64,000 nucleotides of DNA, taken from the NCBI RefSeq assembly GCF_000697965.2, contig NZ_CP015880.1, forward strand, positions 248,001 through 312,000. Reading direction: 5' to 3'. The translations under genes were made by a program, and so were the position numbers. Every line of letters starts with the position of its first letter. Within the stretch, counting starts at the first letter, position 1. Below the pieces are notes generated by a model. That model was given only the letters and a program-made list of their open reading frames with translations, was not told the origin of the DNA and made no database searches. Below are positions 7,411 to 59,115 of this stretch, piece after piece. The DNA is from Ensifer adhaerens (GTDB taxonomy: Bacteria > Pseudomonadota > Alphaproteobacteria > Rhizobiales > Rhizobiaceae).

Positions 7411-9174
7411 ATGGTCAGCATTCTCACGAACGCTGGAGCGATTTCTGCGCTCCAGACTCTGCGTACGATTAACTCCGACATGGCTCAGGTCCGCGGGCAA
7501 CTGAACTCGGGCCTGAGAATTCAGACGGCGGCCGACAACGCCGCCTATTGGTCGATCTCGACAACCATGCGCTCCGACGCCAAGGCCGTGTCTGCGGTCC
7601 AGGACGCGCTCGGGCTGGGAGCGGCCAAGGTCGAGACGGCCTATGCGGCGATGGATGCCGTTACCGGTATTCTCAGCGAGTTCAAGGCCAGGCTGGTGAC
7701 GGCGAGGGAGCCCGGCGTCGACAAGGGCAAGCTCCAGAAGGAGCTCGACCAGCTCAAGCAGCAGATCCTGAGCATCGTGGATTCGGCGAGCTTCAGCGGA
7801 CAGAACTGGCTGAGAACCAATGTCTCCGACATCTATGACAGCGATCTGAATCGCACGTCCGTCGCCTCCTCGTTTTCGAGAGACGCCCGAAACGGCGTGT
7901 CGCTGAACACGGCCGACTTTTTCCTGCGGGACTCCTCGCTGTTCAACAGCACCGGCGGCGGCATCCTGCAGGCCGACACGCGGGATCTGAGGACCGTCGG
8001 CGGGATCCGCTTCGTGACCTCGGTCGATGTCGACGGCTACACCACCAACAGCAACTACAACAACCGGGCGGGCCAGGCTGGCGAATTCGTGTTCCATTTC
8101 ACGGGGCCGCTCAGTTTTTCGAACGCGGGCGACAAGATCACGTTTGACGTCATCGTCGACAAGGACAGCAGCTCTCAAGGTCTCTCGCTGCCGCTACACG
8201 CCGGAAAGACGACCTCGGTCACCGTCGATCGCACCACCGTCGACACGGTGCTCGGCGCCACTGCCAACGGCGTGATATCGGACTACACGCAATATGCAGC
8301 AGTGCTCGACCACGCGGTCAAGCAGGCGGGGGCCGGCGCCACGGTCAAGACATATAGACACCCCTATGAGCCTTACGCCCCCATTATCAATCAAATCGGC
8401 TTCATGACACAGCAGAACTCCGGCCTCGACGGGTCCTATGTCGAGGTCGCCAATCTGGTCGTCAGCACGTCGAGCGGCGGCGGAGCTGGTCTCGTTGAAA
8501 ACTCGGATTTCGGCGAGCGCGGATCGGAGATGACGCTGACGTTCGAGCAATTCGAGGTCTACAAGGACGTCGTCGTATCCTTCAATTTTTCGGTGAACGG
8601 CGAAGCTCCCAGCACCCATTCCTTCGACCGCAATCAGGTGAACGCGCTGCTGGGCAAGGATACCGGCAAGATCGAAACGGTCGACGAGATGGTGACGGTG
8701 CTTCAGTCGCTCATCACCCGGCCGAACACCATCATTCAGAACAACGGCTCAGGCGGCATCCTGATAAAGTCCGATCCGGCCGTCGATCGGAAATCCGGTG
8801 CCGGAACCTTTATCGGCTTCACCAACATTGACGTGAACATCGAACCGATCGCCCGCAGAAACTTCCTTGACGTCGATATCGCGGCCAACCCGCAATCGGT
8901 CGATTCCTATCTCCACTACATCGAAGTCGTCCTGCAGCGGACCATCGACGGTGCAGCGGCGCTCGGTTCGCTGCTGTCGCGCATCGACATGCAAACGACC
9001 TTCGCTCAAACGCTGATGGCGACGATCGACAAGGGGGTCGGGCGCCTGGTGGATGCCGACATGAACGAGACATCGACGCGGCTGAAGGCCTTGCAGTCGC
9101 AGGAGCAGCTCGGCATTCAGGCTTTGCAGATCGCCAACTCCGACGCTCAGAACATCCTGCAGCTCTTCCGCTGA
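7411..9174 (+). CDS. Orphan long flagellin (587 aa)
   Basis: The N-terminus (residues 1-150: ILTNAGAISALQTLRTINSDM, AADNAAYWSISTTMRSD, ALGLGAAKVETAYAAM) and C-terminus (last 100 residues ending IANSDAQNILQLFR) are clear rhizobial flagellin D0/D1 domains. Between them is a unique region of roughly 330 residues rich in Ser, Thr, Asp and Val, with no cysteine noticed. The clustered flagellins at 55-59 kb are only 313-324 aa. It is far from the main flagellar cluster and lacks the shared flagellin leader, but has an exact CtrA-type box upstream. The ribosome binding site is weak. It could be a minor or alternative filament subunit, or a sheath- or glycan-bearing flagellin. Confidence 0.88.
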   Translation: MVSILTNAGAISALQTLRTINSDMAQVRGQLNSGLRIQTAADNAAYWSISTTMRSDAKAVSAVQDALGLGAAKVETAYAAMDAVTGILSEFKARLVTAREPGVDKGKLQKELDQLKQQILSIVDSASFSGQNWLRTNVSDIYDSDLNRTSVASSFSRDARNGVSLNTADFFLRDSSLFNSTGGGILQADTRDLRTVGGIRFVTSVDVDGYTTNSNYNNRAGQAGEFVFHFTGPLSFSNAGDKITFDVIVDKDSSSQGLSLPLHAGKTTSVTVDRTTVDTVLGATANGVISDYTQYAAVLDHAVKQAGAGATVKTYRHPYEPYAPIINQIGFMTQQNSGLDGSYVEVANLVVSTSSGGGAGLVENSDFGERGSEMTLTFEQFEVYKDVVVSFNFSVNGEAPSTHSFDRNQVNALLGKDTGKIETVDEMVTVLQSLITRPNTIIQNNGSGGILIKSDPAVDRKSGAGTFIGFTNIDVNIEPIARRNFLDVDIAANPQSVDSYLHYIEVVLQRTIDGAAALGSLLSRIDMQTTFAQTLMATIDKGVGRLVDADMNETSTRLKALQSQEQLGIQALQIANSDAQNILQLFR

Positions 9175-24429: not shown

Positions 24430-24816
24430 TGTTCGTTTCCTGTAAGCGCATCGTCATGATGTCGCTTTGCGTGATGCGAAGGTTTCTTCGCGCATGCAGC
24501 GCCCACTTCACTTTCGCTTCGATACGCGAGCGCAAGTCGAAGTACAATTCTAAACTCTTGTGATTGAGAACCTGTTGGTTTCAGGCGTGTTTATTACAGT
24601 TTTGTTGCAGCGCAAAAATGGCGCGTGAAAACACCCTGTGAATTTTAGTGATTCCGATTAGAGGCGAGGGACCGTTAACCTTCAAGCAAGGAATTAACCA
24701 TAAACATGGTCCCACACGTCGGAATGGGATAATTCACAAGTCTCCTCAAGGCATGATGCCGCCCCGCCGTACCGGTTCCGGTCCGGTATCCATTCTTCAC
24801 CGAATTTACTTGCGGG
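24430..24816. other. Promoter region of the chemotaxis operon
   Basis: This 387-bp gap precedes icpA and is AT-richer than its surroundings between 24540 and 24710. TTAACC occurs at 24675 and 24694, but the spacing (15 bases between) does not fit a CtrA box. No gene or strong hairpin is seen. It presumably carries the che promoter. Confidence 0.45.
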
Positions 24817-26559
24817 ATGAACGACAGCAGACGCTTTTCGGCGGAGGCTGATCTCATCGATGTGGCGTGCACGTCCGGTGGACCGTGGCTCTCCCTGATG
24901 CTCCCCAGGCAAGTTCCGAACGTGCAGCACCGGGGATCAGCGTTGAGGCAGGAAGCATCGTCAGAACAGGCAAAAAAGGGCCAGGCAGGCAGCCTGCTGG
25001 AGCGCCTGCGCTTTGCCGGGCTCGACGACGAGAGCTGCAACCGCGTCCGCGATCACAGGCAAAAGCTTTCTCCCCGGATTGATCAGGCGCTTCGCGACCT
25101 CTTCCAGCGCCTCCAGACCTATCCCGACGCCGCCCGCCATTTCGACAGCGACCGCCAGATCGACCGCCTTCAGGATCTTCAGTCGTCGCACTGGAACGTG
25201 CTGACCGACGCACGCTTTGACGGGCTTTATGCCGAGCGCATCAAGGTGCTCGCAGACACCGCAAGCCGCATGGGCCTCGACCCGCGCTGGCAGATGGCAA
25301 GCCATGCCGTCGTGCTCGAACATCTCATCGTCGGACTGATCGAAGACGCCTGGCCGCGATCCTTCCTGCCGATTGGCAAGGCGCGCCGCCGCGAACTTTG
25401 CGACCTCGTCGCCGCTCTGGTGCGCACGACCTTCGTCGACAGCGAGATCGGCGTTTCGCTCCGCTTCAACGCCCTCCGCCAACAGCACCAGCGGCAGCTC
25501 GCCGAGCAGCGCAGCGCCGACGAGCTGGAGGTCAAGGCGCTCTTCGGCGACTTTGCCGAAGGCGTGAGCCAGGGTGATCTCGGCGCGCGGTTGCCGGAAA
25601 CGGCGGTCGAAGCCTATCAGCCGATCGTGGCGAGCCTGAACGCGGCACTCGAACAGATCCAACAAAGTCTTCAGGCCTCCGATCAGCGCAGCCAGGCTGC
25701 CGGGGTACTGGTCGACCGCATGCGCGACGGCGCGACAGCCTTCACGGACAAGGCGAGCGCTGAAGCCGACGCGCTTTCCGGGCAGCTTGCCGTGCTCTCC
25801 GACATGGCCGGACGCATGGCGACCGGTTCGGGCCGGATCAGCGCCACGGAAACGAAGGCCAACGAGACCCGCATTGCCGTCGAGCGCAGCGGCGAGATAG
25901 CCGGCCAGGCGATTTCCGCCATGGCCGACATCGAGGCGTCGGCCGAAAAGATCGGCCAGATCATCGGCGTCATCGACGAGATCGCCTTCCAGACCAATCT
26001 TTTGGCGCTCAACGCCGGCATCGAAGCGGCGCGCGCCGGCGACAGCGGTCGCGGTTTTGCCGTCGTCGCCCAGGAAGTGCGTGCGCTGGCACAGCGCTCC
26101 GGCGAAGCGGCGCGCGAAATCAAGCAGCTCGTTTCCGGCACCAAGGCGCAGGTCGAGACCGGCGTCGAGATTGTCGGCCGCACCCAGGACGCGATCAGCA
26201 GCATCGTCGAGCAGGTCACGTCGATCAATTCCGCCGTCTCCGGCATCGCCCGCGAGGCGGAGCAGCAGGTCGGCGACCTCCGCGGCGTCGCGACCGAGAT
26301 CGGCACGATCTCCAGGGGTGTCGAGGCAAGTGCCGCGCTGGCCGGCGAAACCGTCCGTTCGTCGGACGATCTTCATACGGTCATCGTCGAGCTCGGCGAG
26401 ACCATCCGCCAGTTCCGCCTGGAGCGTCGCCATCCGGCCGCATCGGCGCGCGCCGGCCGCGAGCCCTTCCGTCACACATCCGCCGTCGTTGCCGAAGAGC
26501 CGGCCGCACCGTTGTTTGACGACGGGCTGCAGCGGCAGCTCGCCGGTTGGCAGCGCTGA
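24817..26559 (+). CDS. icpA: Cytoplasmic chemoreceptor IcpA with degenerate globin domain
   Basis: This 580-aa transducer lacks transmembrane helices. Residues 60-200 resemble the globin-coupled sensor domain ([30 protein letters not shown]), but where heme sensors have HxRIGL this protein has ASRMGL, so the proximal histidine appears lost. A linker (about 200-270) leads to the methyl-accepting domain with the conserved hairpin [49 protein letters not shown] split over residues 380-430. As in S. meliloti it is the first gene of the che operon. The C-terminus has no CheR-docking pentapeptide. Confidence 0.88.
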
Positions 26560-36295: not shown

Positions 36296-37036
36296 ATGGA
36301 CATTTCGCAAGCAGACATTGCTGTCTGGCCTTTGCCGACGGCACCGACACGCGCACGCGGCGGCGGGTTTTCGCGCGAGCAGCTTTTGCGACGACTGGGC
36401 GAAGTCGCCGGGCGCGGTGCTCTCGGAAGCGGCCTTTCGGCGCTGACGGAATATGTCGGCGCAAGCCATTATCTGTTGGCGCGCTATGATCTGTCACAGG
36501 ACAGCGGTCTCGACCATGTGGTCTGCTCGGACTGGCCTTTCGACGTCGTCCGGCGGCTTTCCGGCGTGATCACCGCGCTTCATGCCAAGACCACCGAACT
36601 GGAAAAGTGCCTCGCGGTGTTGCAGCCGTGTTTTCATGCGCTGCCAGACAATACCGAGCTTCCGCGCGGCATCAGCCGCGAATATTGCGCGATCACCTTC
36701 AATGTCGGGCGCCTGCGTTTCTCCCTGATGCTTCTGGTCCCGGAAGACGTGATCCTGTCGCAGGAGAGCCTGCGTGACGTGACGTTGCTGGCGGGCTATC
36801 TGGCAAGCTTCACCACGCGCGCCGAAGTCCGCCATGACCGCGATTTCGAGCTTACGGAGCGCGAACTCGAGTGCCTGTTCTGGATTGCCGAAGGCAAGAC
36901 GAGCGAAGAGATCGCGGTGATCCTCGGCATTTCGCGCAACACCATCAACAACTACATCACCAGCGTCATGCGCAAGACTGCGACCAGGACGCGGTCGGAA
37001 GCGATTGCCTACGCGGTGCGCAACAATCTTGTGTAA
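36296..37036 (+). CDS. visN: LuxR-type motility regulator VisN
   Basis: This 246-aa protein has an N-terminal sensor-like domain and a C-terminal LuxR/GerE helix-turn-helix (FELTERELECLFWIAEGKTSEEIAVILGISRNTINNYITSVMRKTATRTRSEAIAYAVRNNLV). With VisR it forms the master activator of flagellar, motility and chemotaxis genes in S. meliloti, acting through Rem. visR follows 12 bases after the stop. The upstream region is unusually long and AT-rich. Confidence 0.92.
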   Translation: MDISQADIAVWPLPTAPTRARGGGFSREQLLRRLGEVAGRGALGSGLSALTEYVGASHYLLARYDLSQDSGLDHVVCSDWPFDVVRRLSGVITALHAKTTELEKCLAVLQPCFHALPDNTELPRGISREYCAITFNVGRLRFSLMLLVPEDVILSQESLRDVTLLAGYLASFTTRAEVRHDRDFELTERELECLFWIAEGKTSEEIAVILGISRNTINNYITSVMRKTATRTRSEAIAYAVRNNLV

Positions 37037-44135: not shown

Positions 44136-44861
44136 GTGCAAACCGGTCTTTACGTCGCGATTTCGTCGCAGATGGCGCTTGAAAAGCGCCTCAATACGCT
44201 TGCCGACAACATCGCGAACGCCAACACCGTCGGCTTCCGCGGCACCGAGGTGAAGTTCAACGAGATGCTCGGCGACACGAAGCCGACCAAGGTTGCCTAC
44301 GTCAACAAGGGCGAGGAGTTCCTGAACACCAGCAACGGTTCGCTGACGCGCACCGGCTCGGCGCTCGACTTCGCCGTCAAGGGCGATGCCTGGTTCCAGA
44401 TCGAGACGCCCGCCGGCCCGGCGCTGACGCGCGACGGGCGGTTCACGCTGACGGATACCGGCGAACTCGTCACCATTCGCGGCTATCCGGTTCTCGACGC
44501 CGGCGGCGCGCCGATCCAGCTCAACGGCAACGGCGGCGACATCACCGTCGGCGCCGATGGTGCGCTTCACCAGAACGGTGTCGCGGTCGCCTCGCTCGGC
44601 CTTTACGAGGCCGATTTCAGCAAGGGTTTCATCCGTCTCGACAACAGCGCCGTTCAGCCGGCGGCACAGGTCGAGCCGGTCGTCGACCGTTTCGATGTAG
44701 GCGTCATGCAGGGCTTCCTCGAGGAGTCCAACGTCAATGCCATTCAGGAAATGTCGCAGCTGATCATGGTCACCCGCGCCTTCGACAACATCACCGCCCT
44801 GCTGCGCGACAGCGAAGGATCGCTCGAAGAAGCGGTCAAGACGCTTGGCGGCAGCCGCTAA
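44136..44861 (+). CDS. flgF: Flagellar proximal rod protein FlgF
   Basis: This 241-aa protein has the rod signature LADNIANANTVGFRGTEVKFNEML near its start and the C-terminal FlgG-like tail LEESNVNAIQEMSQLIMVTRAFDNI. It is exported without a signal peptide through the flagellar type III system and forms part of the proximal rod. It begins with GTG 44136 behind a strong GGGGGA site. Confidence 0.93.
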   Translation: MQTGLYVAISSQMALEKRLNTLADNIANANTVGFRGTEVKFNEMLGDTKPTKVAYVNKGEEFLNTSNGSLTRTGSALDFAVKGDAWFQIETPAGPALTRDGRFTLTDTGELVTIRGYPVLDAGGAPIQLNGNGGDITVGADGALHQNGVAVASLGLYEADFSKGFIRLDNSAVQPAAQVEPVVDRFDVGVMQGFLEESNVNAIQEMSQLIMVTRAFDNITALLRDSEGSLEEAVKTLGGSR

Positions 44862-53307: not shown

Positions 53308-55221
53308 TCAGCGTTCGAACGACCCGATGCGCGGCGGCAATGCCGGAACGTCGATGTGATCAGGTGCCAGTCCGCGCTTGGCGCGGTCGGCCATCATTTC
53401 GTAGCCCGTTTCCAGGTGCTGGCAGAAACGCTCCGCATCGAATAGCGGCATCCGGAACCGGTTCTCGTCCAGCCTCTTTCGATAGTCGGCGATCTTGTCA
53501 CGGTTGTTGTAGAGCGCGACAGCTTCCTTGACGTAGTCCTCCGGCCCCGTGGCCACGAGTTCCGGCACGCCGATGGCGTTCAGCAGGCTCTCGCTCACGC
53601 GTGAAGCGAAGTTCGTGCCCTTGAAGGACAGCACCGGCAGGCCTGCCCAGAGCTGTTCGGATGTGGTCGTGTGGCCGTTATAGGGATAGGTGTCGAGGCC
53701 GAGATCGGCGAGCGGAACGCGGTCGACGTGGTTCTGGTAGGCGAACTTGCCGCAGATGACGATGCGCTTGGTATCGATGCCGGCGCTTTTGAACTTGGCC
53801 AGCAGATTTGTGCGTGCATCCGCCCTGTCGCACAGCACCCACAGCAGGCTTCCGGGCGTCTGGCGAAGGATGTCGATCCAGAGATTGACCGTCTGAAGCG
53901 AAATCTTGCGATTTGCGTTGAAGGAGGCAAATACGAATGCATCCTCGGGAAGGCCGACATCCTTGCGCGACATCGCCCGGGGCCGGGCGCGCTCGTAGGG
54001 ATCGTTGGGCTGGTAGGTCTCCGGCAGGCGGCAGTATTTTTCATAATAATGCGCCTTGCTGCTGTCCGGAAGCACACAAGGGTCGCCGATGATGTAGTCG
54101 AGATCGACGTTGACGGTGGTCCCAGGGAAGCCCAGCCAGCCCACCTGCACGGGCGCTGCAGCCCGGTTGAAGATGGAGACTCGGCTTTCGAGCGTATGCC
54201 CCTTCAGGTCGACGAGAATGTCGATATTTTCCTGGCGAATGACATGCGCAGCCTCGTCGTCGGAGAGGTCGCCGATCTCGACGATCCTGCCCCATCTTGC
54301 GCGTATGTCCTGGTCGCGCGCCGCAAGCGCGCTCTTGGTATGGCAGAAGAGGGTGACGTCGAAGCGCGTCTTGTCGTGCGCCATCAACACCGCCTTCAGC
54401 AGCTTCATCGTCGCATGGTCGTCCCAGAAGTCGGCGGAAACATAACCGATGCGAATGCGCTCGCCCCAGCGGTGCGGCGCGGCGCGGCGTACTTCCGTCA
54501 GGCTGCTCGGGAACGGGTTGAGCTGTGCGCCGGCAACCCGGTTGAAGCTTTCGTCGCCACACCAGGTCGCATGATAGTAGGGCGCTTCAGCTGCAAGAAT
54601 TTCGGTCTGCCCGGCTTTCAGTGCCCGTTGGATGTCGCGTTCGTGCTTCTCGACCTCGGCATAGTCGTTGGCCTCACGCGCATAGACGAGATGGGCCGAC
54701 CGCAGCGTGGTGTTCTTCGGGTTGTTGCGGAAGAGATTGGCGAGCGCGTCACGATCTTGCAGATCGTTGATTTCGGCGGTCAACAGCTTGAAGGCAAGCG
54801 CATTGTGCAGACGGTTGGTGCTCAGGGTCAGCGGCGCCTTGAAAAGCCCCAGGATTTCCTTTTCGCCGCGCTTGAGGAAGATCGAGGCGATGATGAAGGC
54901 GATCTCGGCATCTGTCTTGGCCTTCTCCAGAAGCGGCAGTCCGATGCTCAGTGCCTCGTCCTCCTGCCCGTTCGCGAAGTAGAGTTTCATGGCGTCGGTG
55001 AGGTAATCTTCCGCCCGCGAGCCGCCGGCTTCACCGGCGAGCTGGTAGGCACGGGCCGCCTCAGCCTTGAAACCGAGTTTCACGAGGACCTTCGCCAGAA
55101 GCACATAGGTCTTGGTGTCGCGGTTGATCTCCATCAGCACATTCAGCTGGTTGAGCGCGTCCGTGTACTGCCCCTTCTGGTATTGCCGGGAGGCGGTCGA
55201 AAAGATGGCTTGGGCGTTCAC
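53308..55221 (-). CDS. TPR-containing GT41 (OGT-like) glycosyltransferase in the flagellin locus
   Basis: This 637-aa protein has N-terminal helical/TPR repeats (about 1-200, YTDALNQLNVLMEINRDTKTYVLLAKVLVKLG) and a C-terminal GT41 domain like O-GlcNAc transferase: IRIGYVSADFWDDHATMKLL, APVQVGWLGFPGTTVNVDLDYIIGD, SFNANRKISLQTVNLW (Lys as in OGT) and LGLDTYPYNGHTTTSEQLWAGLPVLSFKG. Such enzymes add a sugar to Ser/Thr of proteins in the cytoplasm. It diverges from flaA, with a CtrA-type box between them, and converges on fliP. Flagellin is the obvious substrate candidate; this is inference. Confidence 0.88.
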   Translation of the reverse strand: MNAQAIFSTASRQYQKGQYTDALNQLNVLMEINRDTKTYVLLAKVLVKLGFKAEAARAYQLAGEAGGSRAEDYLTDAMKLYFANGQEDEALSIGLPLLEKAKTDAEIAFIIASIFLKRGEKEILGLFKAPLTLSTNRLHNALAFKLLTAEINDLQDRDALANLFRNNPKNTTLRSAHLVYAREANDYAEVEKHERDIQRALKAGQTEILAAEAPYYHATWCGDESFNRVAGAQLNPFPSSLTEVRRAAPHRWGERIRIGYVSADFWDDHATMKLLKAVLMAHDKTRFDVTLFCHTKSALAARDQDIRARWGRIVEIGDLSDDEAAHVIRQENIDILVDLKGHTLESRVSIFNRAAAPVQVGWLGFPGTTVNVDLDYIIGDPCVLPDSSKAHYYEKYCRLPETYQPNDPYERARPRAMSRKDVGLPEDAFVFASFNANRKISLQTVNLWIDILRQTPGSLLWVLCDRADARTNLLAKFKSAGIDTKRIVICGKFAYQNHVDRVPLADLGLDTYPYNGHTTTSEQLWAGLPVLSFKGTNFASRVSESLLNAIGVPELVATGPEDYVKEAVALYNNRDKIADYRKRLDENRFRMPLFDAERFCQHLETGYEMMADRAKRGLAPDHIDVPALPPRIGSFER

Positions 55222-55397: not shown

Positions 55398-55535
55398 GTA
55401 TAAGTTATCTCGGCCCAAGCTGCCTTGGGCATTTAATCAATTCGCAAGCTTTGCACGCGATAGTCCCTTTCACATGACGGGTTTGGTTTCTTCCGAGATA
55501 GTTGGAACCGAGTGGCATGAAGCCGATCCGCCATC

Positions 55536-55590
55536 ACCGGGAAGTCCGGTATGTCCCCTAAATCGTCTAAAGTAATCAAGGGACACTCTA
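55536..55590 (+). promoter_or_regulatory. Structured flagellin leader of flaA (SD-sequestering)
   Basis: ACCGG (55536-55540) and CCGGT (55546-55550) form a small hairpin. It is followed by TGTCCC (55552-55557), which is the exact complement of GGGACA (55580-55585) covering the Shine-Dalgarno region before ATG 55591. The same layout precedes two other flagellins. Confidence 0.6.
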
Positions 55591-56532
55591 ATGACGAGCA
55601 TCATCACCAATTCTTCCGCCATGGGCGCACTCGCCACCCTGCGTTCGATCAACTCCTCGATGGAAACCACCCAGGAGCGTATTTCGTCGGGTCTGCGCGT
55701 CGGCACCGCGGCTGACAACGCTGCTTACTGGTCGATCGCGACCACCATGCGTTCGGACAACAAGGCCCTCTCGGCTGTTCAGGACGCCCTCGGCCTCGGC
55801 GCTGCCAAGACCGACGTTGCTTCGTCGGCCATGGAAAACTCCAAGGACGTCGTCGACGAAATCAAGAAGAAGCTGGTAACCGCCAGCGAGCCGGGCGTTG
55901 ACAAGAGCAAGATCCAGAAGGAAATCAAGGAGCTGCAGAACCAGCTCGTGAGCATTGCCAAGTCGGCCTCGTTCTCCGGCGAAAACTGGGTTTACACCGA
56001 CCCGAACAACGCTGCCGGCACGAAGTCGGTCGTTGGTTCGTTCAACCGCGACGCCAAGGGCAATGTCAGCCTGACGACGCTGCAGTACGACACCAACAAG
56101 AGCTCGCTGATCGAAGTGAACGCTTCGGGTGCCAACGTCACCAACGGCACGGGCCTGCTCTCCAGCAACATCTCCTACACCGACACGACCGGTGCGACCG
56201 TATCGCTGACCTTCAGCGTTCTGTCGCTCGACATCACCAGCATGACGAACGGCGCTCTGTCGCAGGCTCTGTCGGGTGTTGACTCGGTCCTGACCCAGAT
56301 GACCGACGCTGCCGCCGACCTCGGTGCGCTCAACAGCCGTATCGATCTGCAGAAGGGCTTCGTCGAAAACCTCTCGGACTCGATCGAGAAGGGCGTTGGC
56401 CGTCTCGTCGACGCCGACATGAACGAGGAATCGACCCGCCTGAAGGCTCTGCAGACGCAGCAGCAGCTCGGCATCCAGGCACTGTCGATCGCCAACTCGA
56501 ACTCGCAGAACATCCTGTCGCTGTTCCGTTAA
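55591..56532 (+). CDS. flaA: Flagellin FlaA
   Basis: This 313-aa flagellin has N-terminal TNSSAMGALATLRSINSSMETTQERISSGLRV and the tail STRLKALQTQQQLGIQALSIANSNSQNILSLFR. It is exported through the type III system to form the filament. I count about 15 amino-acid differences from FlaB, mostly in residues 187-240. In S. meliloti FlaA is the essential main subunit. A CtrA-type box and structured leader precede it, and a terminator follows 52 bases after the stop. Confidence 0.95.
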   Translation: MTSIITNSSAMGALATLRSINSSMETTQERISSGLRVGTAADNAAYWSIATTMRSDNKALSAVQDALGLGAAKTDVASSAMENSKDVVDEIKKKLVTASEPGVDKSKIQKEIKELQNQLVSIAKSASFSGENWVYTDPNNAAGTKSVVGSFNRDAKGNVSLTTLQYDTNKSSLIEVNASGANVTNGTGLLSSNISYTDTTGATVSLTFSVLSLDITSMTNGALSQALSGVDSVLTQMTDAAADLGALNSRIDLQKGFVENLSDSIEKGVGRLVDADMNEESTRLKALQTQQQLGIQALSIANSNSQNILSLFR

Positions 56533-56583
56533 TCGACGGGTTGAAAGGGGGCGGGCCACGGTCCGCACCCGATGCAAAATACG

Positions 56584-56617
56584 AAACCGCGCTTCGCAAG
56601 AGGCGCGGTTTTTCTTT
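56584..56617 (+). terminator. Rho-independent terminator after flaA
   Basis: AAACCGCGC (56584-56592) pairs with GCGCGGTTT (56603-56611), followed by TTCTTTG. Confidence 0.85.
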
Positions 56618-56659
56618 GTCGCCAATGCACTGATAAAACTTCGAAAAGTTTCTCTGGGT

Positions 56660-56676
56660 TTTAGGGTTCGTTAACC
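56660..56676 (+). promoter_or_regulatory. Near-consensus CtrA-type box upstream of flaB
   Basis: TTTA (56660-56663), seven bases, TTAACC (56671-56676): one mismatch to TTAA-N7-TTAACC. It lies 145 bases before flaB. The spacing and position agree with the other flagellin boxes. Confidence 0.45.
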
Positions 56677-56762
56677 ACGATGGTGTTTGTTGTAACCATC
56701 GAAACGACGGGTTGACCCGAACAGATTAAAGCGTCAGCAGGCATGAGGCTGACCGTCGTTTC

Positions 56763-56821
56763 CCGGTAATCCCGGAATGTCCCTTTCCATTTCATCTTTG
56801 CCAACAAGGGGCACTCAGCCA
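56763..56821 (+). promoter_or_regulatory. Structured flagellin leader of flaB (SD-sequestering)
   Basis: CCGG (56763-56766) and CCGG (56772-56775) form the small hairpin. TGTCCCTT (56778-56785) can pair with AAGGGGCA (56806-56813), with one G-U pair, covering the Shine-Dalgarno sequence ahead of ATG 56822. Confidence 0.6.
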
Positions 56822-57763
56822 ATGACGAGCATTCTGACCAACTCTTCCGCCATGGGCGCACTCGCCACCCTGCGTTCGATCAACTCCTCGATGGAAACCA
56901 CCCAGGAGCGCATCTCCTCGGGTCTGCGCGTCGCCACCGCGGCTGACAACGCCGCTTACTGGTCGATCGCGACCACCATGCGTTCGGACAACAAGGCCCT
57001 CTCGGCCGTTCAGGACGCCCTCGGCCTCGGCGCTGCCAAGACCGACGTTGCTTCGTCGGCCATGGAAAACTCCAAGGACGTCGTCGACGAAATCAAGAAG
57101 AAGCTGGTAACCGCCAGCGAGCCGGGCGTTGACAAGAGCAAGATCCAGAAGGAAATCAAGGAGCTGCAGAACCAGCTTCTGAGCATTGCCAAGTCGGCCT
57201 CGTTCTCCGGCGAAAACTGGGTCTTCACCGACCCGAACAACGCTGCCGGCACGAAGTCGGTCGTTGGTTCGTTCAACCGCGACGCCAAGGGCAATGTCAG
57301 CCTGACGACGCTGCAGTACGACACCAACAAGAGCTCGCTGATCGAAATGAACGCTTCCGGCGCGTTCGTCACGACCGGCACGGGCCTGCTCTCCAGCAAT
57401 ATCTCCTACACCGACACGACCGGCGCGACCGTAGCGTTGACCTTCAGCGTCATGACGCTCGACATCACCAACATGACGGGCGGCGCTCTGTCGCAGGCTC
57501 TGTCGGGTGTTGACTCCATCCTGACCCAGATGACCGACGCTGCCGCTGACCTCGGTGCGCTCAACAGCCGTATCGATCTGCAGAAGGGCTTCGTCGAAAA
57601 CCTCTCGGACTCGATCGAGAAGGGCGTTGGCCGTCTCGTCGACGCTGACATGAACGAGGAATCGACCCGCCTGAAGGCTCTGCAGACGCAGCAGCAGCTC
57701 GGCATCCAGGCACTCACGATCGCTAACACCAACTCGCAGAACATCCTGTCGCTGTTCCGTTAA
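56822..57763 (+). CDS. flaB: Flagellin FlaB
   Basis: This 313-aa flagellin is almost identical to FlaA. Visible differences include I5L, G38A, NVTNG to FVTTG, and several in the segment that begins VALTFSVMTLDITNMTGG. The start ATG 56822 has AAGGGG upstream; a longer frame from 56777 would run through the leader and is rejected. It is a filament subunit. It is a separate transcription unit from flaA, with its own leader and terminator. Confidence 0.95.
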   Translation: MTSILTNSSAMGALATLRSINSSMETTQERISSGLRVATAADNAAYWSIATTMRSDNKALSAVQDALGLGAAKTDVASSAMENSKDVVDEIKKKLVTASEPGVDKSKIQKEIKELQNQLLSIAKSASFSGENWVFTDPNNAAGTKSVVGSFNRDAKGNVSLTTLQYDTNKSSLIEMNASGAFVTTGTGLLSSNISYTDTTGATVALTFSVMTLDITNMTGGALSQALSGVDSILTQMTDAAADLGALNSRIDLQKGFVENLSDSIEKGVGRLVDADMNEESTRLKALQTQQQLGIQALTIANTNSQNILSLFR

Positions 57764-57778
57764 TCGATCGACCGAACA

Positions 57779-57850
57779 TGACGGGCGATCCTCGCCCGTC
57801 ACTTCGAAAAGAAGCCGCACATCCCCCGTGGATCGTGCGGCTTTTTCGTT
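57779..57850 (+). terminator. Tandem hairpins terminating flaB
   Basis: The first stem is TGACGGGCGA (57779-57788) with TCGCCCGTCA (57792-57801). The second is AAGCCGCAC (57812-57820) with GTGCGGCTT (57835-57843), followed by TTTCGTTTT. The second has the form of a Rho-independent terminator. Confidence 0.8.
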
Positions 57851-57987
57851 TTGCGCTCCGGTATTCCATGCCCGCCAGGCGTACCGTATGCCGCCGGCAT
57901 TCGTTCCATGGGTGACGGTACGCATCTTAACGCTTCGTCCATCTTCCCTTATTTTTGTTCACCTTTGTTACCGACTTCCTAACGGCA

Positions 57988-58003
57988 TTAACCATTTGTT
58001 AAC
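57988..58003 (+). promoter_or_regulatory. CtrA-type box upstream of the third flagellin
   Basis: TTAA (57988-57991), CCATTTG, TTAAC (57999-58003) matches the consensus exactly. Weaker copies lie 20 bp upstream and 26 bp downstream, giving a tandem cluster. Confidence 0.6.
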
Positions 58004-58090
58004 TATGAGATCGTTACATATTGGTTAAGAGCGAAGGGTCGCCTCCAGGGCAAAACAGGGGCGATTCGCATGATGCCAGTCCCATCGCTG

Positions 58091-58140
58091 CCGGTAACAC
58101 TCCGGAATGTCCTTAGGAATTCATTCGGGACAGGTGACCA
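58091..58140 (+). promoter_or_regulatory. Structured leader of the third flagellin (SD-sequestering)
   Basis: CCGG (58091-58094) and CCGG (58102-58105) form the small hairpin. TGTCC (58108-58112) pairs with GGACA (58128-58132), extendable by a U-G pair, across the Shine-Dalgarno region before ATG 58141. Confidence 0.55.
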
Positions 58141-59115
58141 ATGACAAGCATCATGACCAACACCGCCGCCATGGCGGCTCTCCAGACATTGCGTTCGATC
58201 AACTCCGACATGGCGGAAGTCCAGGACCGCATCTCCTCGGGCTACCGCGTGCAGACGGCTGCCGACAACGCCGCCTATTGGTCGATCGCGACCACCATGC
58301 GCTCCGACAATGCCGCGCTCTCCACCGTTCAGGACGCCCTCGGCCTCGGCGCCGCCAAGATCGACACGGCCTATGCGGCGATGAATTCGTCGATCGAGGT
58401 CGTCAGCGCGATCAAGAGCAAGCTCGTCGCGGCGAGTGAGCCGGGCGTCGACAAGCTGAAGATCGACAAGGAAATCACCGAGCTCAAGAACCAGCTTATC
58501 TCGGCCGCCCAGTCCGCATCCTTCTCCAGCGAAAACTGGCTCTACAACGCCGCCACAGCTCCGGTCGGCACGAAGTCCGTCGTGGCCTCGTTCAACCGTG
58601 ACGCCAACGGCAATGTGTCGGTCACGACGCTCGACTTCGACACCTCGCAGTCGATGCTGATCGACAAGCAGAACGCGAGCCGAGGCATCCTGACCAGGAA
58701 CTACGACGCCTCCCAGCTCACCTCTCCGCCCGGCACGGCGGGCGCGCGCCTGTACCACCTGATCGGCGCACCGGCGACGACGCCGATCGGTACGACGGCG
58801 GAAGTCAAGCTGACCGCATCGACGACGCCTGCCGAAATGGCCGATATGATCAGCGTCGTCGAACGTATCCTCAACCAGCTGACGGACGCCGGCTCCACGC
58901 TCGGCGCCATCACCAAGCGCATCGAGTTGCAGGAGGGCTTCATCGCCAACCTGATGGATACGATCGACAAGGGCGTCGGTCGTCTCGTCGATGCCGACAT
59001 GAACGAGGAATCGACACGGCTGAAGGCGCTGCAGACGCAGCAGCAACTGGGCATCCAGGCGCTCTCGATCGCCAACACCAATTCCGAAAACATCCTGCGC
59101 CTGTTCCAGCAGTAA
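58141..59115 (+). CDS. flaC: Flagellin (third clustered copy)
   Basis: This 324-aa flagellin keeps the D0/D1 ends (MTNTAAMAALQTLRSINSDMAEVQDRISSGYRVQTAADNAAYWS; QQQLGIQALSIANTNSENILRLFQQ) but has a different centre (LDFDTSQSMLIDKQNASRGILTRNYDASQLTSPPGTAGA). In S. meliloti the cluster has flaA, flaB, flaD, flaC; only three copies lie here, so the letter is approximate. It is a minor filament subunit by analogy. Its start is preceded by GGGACAGG. Confidence 0.93.
   Translation: MTSIMTNTAAMAALQTLRSINSDMAEVQDRISSGYRVQTAADNAAYWSIATTMRSDNAALSTVQDALGLGAAKIDTAYAAMNSSIEVVSAIKSKLVAASEPGVDKLKIDKEITELKNQLISAAQSASFSSENWLYNAATAPVGTKSVVASFNRDANGNVSVTTLDFDTSQSMLIDKQNASRGILTRNYDASQLTSPPGTAGARLYHLIGAPATTPIGTTAEVKLTASTTPAEMADMISVVERILNQLTDAGSTLGAITKRIELQEGFIANLMDTIDKGVGRLVDADMNEESTRLKALQTQQQLGIQALSIANTNSENILRLFQQ

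Follow-up and report, generated by a model that had tools for sequence, protein, structure and literature searches.

A two-module leader that may close the Shine-Dalgarno sequence of flagellin mRNAs in Ensifer adhaerens and other Hyphomicrobiales

Three flagellin genes are clustered in a 64,000-nucleotide (nt) stretch of the 7.27 Mb, three-contig genome of Ensifer adhaerens (contig NZ_CP015880.1, positions 248,001 to 312,000; hereafter the window, whose own numbering is used unless a contig is named). The locus raises the question whether their 5' leaders hide the ribosome binding site and what might open it. We favour the reading, with a probability of roughly 0.55, that flagellin mRNAs of the order Hyphomicrobiales carry a two-module 5' leader in which a helix, P2, closes the Shine-Dalgarno sequence (SD), translation is low by default, and the protein FlbT acts on the leader and opens it.

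From 5' to 3', the leader comprises a box (RCATGANGY), 12-14 nt, a hairpin termed P1 (CCGG..CCGG), 1 nt, the sequence AUGUCCC, a loop and the SD. P2 is formed by AUGUCCC pairing back with GGG(A/G)CA, which is the SD itself. The intervening loop of P2 spans 8-28 nt and that of P1 2-17 nt in 208 aligned leaders. The elements in the window, all on the plus strand, and the basis of each assignment are as follows.

55514..55524, plus strand: palindromic promoter-like box of flaA, GGCATGAAGCC (direct reading, pattern scan)
55536..55550, plus strand: hairpin P1 of flaA, ACCGG-GAAGT-CCGGT, with CCGG at 55537-55540 and 55546-55549 (reading, fold, alignment)
55552..55557, plus strand: 5' arm of P2 (anti-SD) of flaA, TGTCCC (reading, fold, alignment)
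55578..55585, plus strand: SD and 3' arm of P2 of flaA, AAGGGACA, with GGGACA at 55580-55585 (reading, fold, computed accessibility)
55591..56532, plus strand: flaA flagellin, 313 amino acids, ATG at 55591 (open reading frame, domain scan)
56740..56750, plus strand: palindromic box of flaB, GGCATGAGGCT (reading, pattern scan)
56763..56775, plus strand: hairpin P1 of flaB, CCGG-TAATC-CCGG, with CCGG at 56763-56766 and 56772-56775 (reading, fold)
56778..56785, plus strand: 5' arm of P2 of flaB, TGTCCCTT (reading, fold)
56806..56813, plus strand: SD and 3' arm of P2 of flaB, AAGGGGCA (reading, fold, computed accessibility)
56822..57763, plus strand: flaB flagellin, 313 amino acids counted from the ATG at 56822 (open reading frame, domain scan)
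58067..58077, plus strand: palindromic box of the third flagellin gene, CGCATGATGCC (reading, pattern scan)
58091..58105, plus strand: hairpin P1 of the third gene, CCGG-TAACACT-CCGG, with CCGG at 58091-58094 and 58102-58105 (reading; outside the minimum-energy fold)
58108..58112, plus strand: 5' arm of P2 of the third gene, TGTCC (reading; outside the minimum-energy fold)
58128..58132, plus strand: 3' arm of P2 of the third gene, GGACA (reading; overlaps an alternative SD, AGGTGA, at 58132-58137)
58141..59115, plus strand: third flagellin, 324 amino acids, ATG at 58141 (open reading frame, domain scan)

Direct reading of the window reproduces exactly the coordinates, pairings and lengths that the initial annotation gave for the three leaders, with P1 loops of 5, 5 and 7 nt and P2 spacers of 22, 20 and 15 nt (flaA, flaB and third gene, respectively). 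Its further proposal that one leader is common to all three flagellins fits flaA and flaB; the third gene is equivocal, with a poor fit and another SD. A domain scan finds PF00669 and PF00700 in all three products, identifying them as flagellins, and the closest named flagellins among the best 80 of 512 matches belong to Ensifer adhaerens strains (100% and 93% identity). The start of flaB in the open reading frame list, 56777, is the AUG of the anti-SD box; a leader peptide initiated at the AUG of AUGUCC was considered and rejected, the frame being in phase with the flagellin in flaB only.

The combination of box and hairpin is far from random in the window: the pattern GCATGANGC-N10-25-CCGG-N2-20-CCGG occurs six times compared with 0.08 expected. 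Three of the matches are the flagellin leaders, one lies 5' of a chemoreceptor gene and two are on the minus strand (36550-36585 and 44658-44709). A covariance model of the leader, built including these three, scores them at 46.5, 43.8 and 35.9 bits, and they are its only strong matches in the genome; the next best reaches 24.9 bits and is not 5' of a flagellin. PF00669 is matched six times in the genome, by the three clustered genes and at window position 7411, C1:657181 and C1:316458. The flagellin at 7411-9174 (plus strand, 587 amino acids), outside the main cluster, is preceded by neither box, P1 nor P2, and a truncated flagellin of 148 amino acids in the C1:657181 region (minus strand; our locus L227) has a GGCATCATGACG stretch upstream and neither P1 nor P2.

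How widely is the element shared? Flagellin protein homology retrieved 72 named loci (among the best 80 of 512 matches), to which the window was added. Of 227 candidate starts 214 were usable and 13 were dropped, leaving 207 distinct leaders; from later analyses L038_8001 and L069_8001 (no motif) and L160_5725 (misanchored) were left out, and L280 and L281 are the same genes as L172 and L176. CCGG-N2-20-CCGG is found in 195 of the 207, ATGTCCC in 164, and the full order CCGG-N2-20-CCGG-N-ATGTCCC-N8-35-GGG[AG]C in 156. Among the Rhizobiaceae flagellins that protein homology brought in, the majority bear the element. The box RCATGANGY is present in 209 of 214 leaders and in 196 of those 209 lies 12-14 nt 5' of the first CCGG. 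As a conserved stem, P1 keeps a constant spacing to this promoter-like box.

The accessibility of the SD was computed for 209 of the 215 leaders that remained after a set of 293 had been thinned, and for 150 control genes (of 176). In the flagellin leaders the probability that the SD is unpaired has a median of 0.20, the mean of shuffles in which the SD was held fixed being 0.29, and 133 of the 209 fall below their own shuffle mean (Wilcoxon p 2.4e-11). The corresponding values for the control genes are 0.38 and 0.39, with 78 of the 150 under their own shuffle mean (p 0.82). The SD is less accessible in flagellin leaders than in control genes (p 3.9e-14), a comparison in which control genes needed an SD score of at least 9 and flagellin leaders were free of that requirement. 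The core pairs of P2 have a median probability of 0.97 in 213 Rhizobiaceae leaders (above 0.5 in 163); for 46 leaders from other families the median is 0.93 (above 0.5 in 39). At 28 °C, taking away P1 and the anti-SD raises the predicted openness of the SD from 0.28 to 0.72 in flaA and from 0.04 to 0.38 in flaB. The GGGACAG of the third gene changes from 0.44 with to 0.49 without the upstream part (0.39 and 0.56 at 37 °C), and its minimum-energy fold does not contain the proposed pairing. In these computations AUGUCCC, 1 nt past P1, thus pairs with the SD, and most full leaders are predicted to have a largely closed SD. A short helix covering the SD and containing U-G pairs is also the general form of an RNA thermometer, which would open on warming. 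We consider this very unlikely, as predicted accessibility is flat between 20 and 45 °C (0.28-0.30 in flaA, 0.04 in flaB) and none of the Rfam 15 families scores at or above its cut-off on the leaders that were scanned (those of the window and seven fetched loci).

Alignment anchors learned from sequence alone allowed 208 of 210 leaders, in their 100-nt form, to be aligned. The four pairs of P1 are kept in 207, 201, 207 and 204 of the 208, and in the core of P2 all six pairs are kept in 179 and at least five in 204. Several stems have been rewritten with pairing intact, as judged by eye: P1 reads GCTGCT/AGCAGC in L179 (also folded), GGCC/GGCC or GGCT/AGCC in L034, L041 and L043, CCAGC/GCTGG in L310 and ACGG/CCGT in L045 and L046. 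P2 reads TGCTTT/AGGGTG in L034, and four genomes from three genera have TGTTCC/GGAACA there: G265 (L172, the same as L280), G248 (L176, the same as L281), G776 (L252) and G849 (L253); a search of the genus around G265 gave a close match in 3 of 119. Compensatory changes, whose absence from an alignment of many species would have told against the initial annotation, thus exist in both helices. The base change in flaB that it had read as covariation-like is only an A replaced by G while its U partner stays as it was, giving a U-G wobble altered on one side.

Is the pairing more than the chance complementarity of two sequences conserved for separate reasons, one a DNA element of the promoter or the early transcript (CCGGNATGTCC), the other the SD? 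The fixed 12-14 nt between box and P1, as for DNA elements, would suit such a coincidence, as would folding energies of single leaders that are no better than those of shuffles (z -0.86, 0.01 and 0.34 for the three window leaders) and the lack of significant covariation in P2 alone. We nevertheless regard it as improbable. The re-sequenced stems keep their pairing (four kinds of P1, and GUUCC/GGAAC in P2). Among 229 thinned leaders of 294, the core of P2 is paired in 1275 of 1366 cells (93%), compared with 40-54% for slid partners, and P1 in 1003 of 1111 (slid partners 8-71%); P1 has 67 cells in which both sides have changed, compared with 3-15 in slid controls. In 75 leaders less than 80% identical, 86.3% of cells are paired and 82.7% after shuffling (0 of 500 shuffles as high). 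A tree-aware whole-helix null with 500 simulations, in which changes were placed by branch length and which may overstate breakage, never reaches the observed values, neither for all six P2 pairs (179 of 208 versus 105.7, standard deviation 32) nor for P1 (950 of 1040 cells versus 832.7, standard deviation 44.5). Moreover, in an R-scape-like pairwise test that redistributes substitutions along the flagellin protein tree, the closing pair of P1 ranks first of 666 column pairs (expectation value E 0.16, and 0.045 with 53 more leaders from model-found loci). Conservation, pairing and accessibility computations together support the earlier proposal that the flagellins share an RNA leader and that its second hairpin covers the SD.

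Beyond the family, a covariance-model search of 297 genomes of the order gave matches at E of at most 1 in 194 genomes, and many of these matches are noise. Those of at least 30 bits come from the family of the window's genome and from 11 others in the Hyphomicrobiales, and every one sits directly 5' of a flagellin start codon. Among fetched matches below 30 bits, eight are not at a flagellin start (L173 at 29.6 bits, L186 at 27.2 bits, L187, L189, L190, L192, L195 and L196) and L182 runs into a contig edge. Pairing counts in these order-wide leaders are biased because the search model contains the structure; the set retrieved by protein homology is free of this bias. In 7-8 Mb genomes of family f35 the leader stands before tandem flagellins with lengths of 301 and 303 amino acids, which from their size and arrangement are putatively Bradyrhizobium LafA-like. 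When 385 genomes of the class were searched, matches outside the order stayed at or below 24.2 bits, no better than noise in the window's own genome (24.9), and none of 28 loci checked had a flagellin start at the match. A flagellin was found in 70 of 114 class genomes, and 18 leaders from outside the order (from 30 loci and 19 stretches; four further rows were own-genome) contain the element in no case by eye. Two of them, L239 and L242, have a small hairpin of the TCCTT-AGAA-GGA type at an ordinary SD, possibly an independent case of SD occlusion.

In families other than the Rhizobiaceae, an alternative pairing is conceivable in which the AUG of this box reaches upstream and lengthens P1. 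All four extra pairs are available in 28 of 47 model-found leaders, compared with a shuffled mean of 16.3 (0 of 2000 shuffles as high). Lengthened P1 and P2 could then be two mutually exclusive states; the former is a minority in computed ensembles, and both exceed 0.1 in 15 of 46 leaders.

The box and P1 might form a module of their own. At 24750-24787 (plus strand) a late-gene box, GGCATGATGCC, and a P1-like ACCGG-N7-CCGGT hairpin (24771-24787), without AUGUCC, precede a protoglobin/methyl-accepting chemotaxis protein (MCP) chemoreceptor gene (24817-26559), and P1 thus seems to be common to a chemotaxis promoter. Judged from these motifs, box and P1 may represent a late-gene promoter and transcript 5' end, to which P2 would be a flagellin-specific addition. 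Upstream of the third flagellin gene, TTAA-N7-TTAA at 57988-58002 would fit a CtrA-type site; CtrA motifs are reported at flaA, flaC and flaD of S. meliloti (PMC3616915).

What might open P2? The same flagellar region encodes FlbT (PF07378, 142.7 bits; G000:C1:317880-318251) approximately 14 kb downstream of flaA. Published work assigns FlbT different roles. In Caulobacter it is a repressor of flagellin translation (PMC3930126; PMC7591256) whose binding promotes decay of the target mRNA (PMC4347634). In Brucella it is a proposed activator, acting in a way that is described as unclear (PMC4347634; also PMC9812332), in Bradyrhizobium diazoefficiens LafA1 and LafA2 are translationally induced by FlbT (PMC8429497, citing Mongiardini 2017), and a screen for lost motility in Agrobacterium (A. 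fabrum) recovered flbT and flaF (PMC9812332). The Caulobacter model invoked by the initial annotation is therefore not simply transferable. The leader might nonetheless be a switch responding to hook completion, as that annotation suggested, and FlbT might bind it. The simplest joint reading of the leader and these published roles would be a P2 that holds the SD closed and an FlbT that assists in its opening. Transcription would start just 5' of P1, making it a 5'-end hairpin; a closed P2 would keep flagellin translation low by default; FlbT would act on the leader, opening P2 or holding an open form; and flagellin synthesis would then follow the demand of the assembly programme. The FlbT step is the least certain. 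An order-wide switch might also explain the opposite signs of FlbT, which would activate by opening P2 where P2 is present and repress where it is absent; this extension is tentative, and we hold it with clearly less confidence. FlbT is encoded in 43 of 44 chosen genomes of the order (the exception, G801, is 89% complete), including all ten judged P2-poor by eye, and its presence is thus uninformative as a correlate of P2.

Several observations weigh against an SD-closing switch worked by FlbT. In the R-scape-like test no column pair reaches E<0.05 in the 208 protein-retrieved leaders; the core pairs of P2 hardly vary and hence give no covariation signal, so that of the covariation sought earlier compensatory changes exist but no P2 pair is significant. 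Cells of P2 with both sides changed (12) are fewer than in six slid controls (16-35); they exceed column shuffles (3.9, standard deviation 1.9; 0 of 300), and by this measure there is no clear support. RNAalifold on 75 leaders gives P2 and not P1, and L260, L318 and L321 show neither by eye. The anti-SD box is absent by pattern in 31 of 209 leaders, which are not consistently closed. In L255 (1440-1515) the stretch after P1 forms, from the same AUG, a perfect AUGAUCA/UGAUCAU hairpin that leaves the SD outside (reading and fold), and in L258_1501 a hairpin from this AUG likewise does not include the SD (by eye), suggesting that covering the SD may not be the sole role. Finally, FlbT is encoded in five of seven class genomes outside the order, where the leader model finds noise only.

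Some of these features suit a different function, in which AUGUCCC and P1 are mainly a structure bound by a protein (FlbT, FlaF or another) or a determinant of mRNA decay, SD pairing being a by-product without occlusion in vivo. L255 and L258_1501 point this way, as does the decay that FlbT binding promotes in Caulobacter. P1 also persists by eye where P2 is lost or weakened (L302, L306, L309, L249 and L285), and since several leaders without the anti-SD box keep P1, the two modules can be lost separately. We consider this alternative possible yet rather doubtful: the SD is computed to be less accessible than in control genes or in shuffles that keep it fixed, inferred substitutions in the P2 core mostly keep pairing, and two-sided changes exist. 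A box this short and nearly invariant, beside a hairpin, might also serve a trans-acting small RNA, which by pairing with either AUGUCCC or the SD would free or block the opposite strand. The P2 loop sequences vary between leaders, and such an RNA would surprise us greatly.

Leaders in which an upstream anti-SD strand closes the SD are known in general from riboswitch expression platforms and ROSE/fourU thermometers. The present leader would be of this known kind, differing from the thermometers in that the predicted occlusion of flaA and flaB does not depend on temperature and in the lack of an Rfam match above cut-off. RF01736 (flg-Rhizobiales), from the same order, likewise represents a structured leader that precedes a flagellar gene. 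It was considered and rejected, with no match on the window leaders or seven fetched loci (gathering cut-off 55 bits); its best score in the own genome is 21 bits, below cut-off and away from the flagellin leaders. It differs in sequence, precedes flgF where checked (the protein downstream of L323 is FlgF, 437.8 bits) rather than a flagellin, and in G035 and G143 is located apart from the flagellin leaders. The FlbT/5' untranslated region control of Caulobacter crescentus shares with our locus a flagellin 5' region, a post-transcriptional level and FlbT encoded near the flagellins. It differs in that FlbT represses there and activates in Brucella and Bradyrhizobium, and in that the leader element is not found outside the order at the model's sensitivity, Caulobacter's own leader not having been inspected. 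A description of the leader was not found in the open full-text literature, a scope that excludes older rhizobial flagellin papers, and its novelty is therefore provisional.

Adjoining flaA, a GT41-type glycosyltransferase gene lies on the minus strand (53308-55221), with a weak ANAPC3 repeat match below cut-off. Its layout resembles that of the Caulobacter flagellin glycosyltransferase FlmG, which is described as having tetratricopeptide repeat and glycosyltransferase domains (PMC7591256).

For the organism, the leader probably restrains production of the filament until there is a need for it. Natural relatives with P1 and P2, with P1 alone or with neither would offer a direct test of which module FlbT needs, and the same relatives would test whether P2 decides between activation and repression by FlbT. 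Furthermore, the leader would supply a new RNA family for annotating the genomes of rhizobia and related bacteria.

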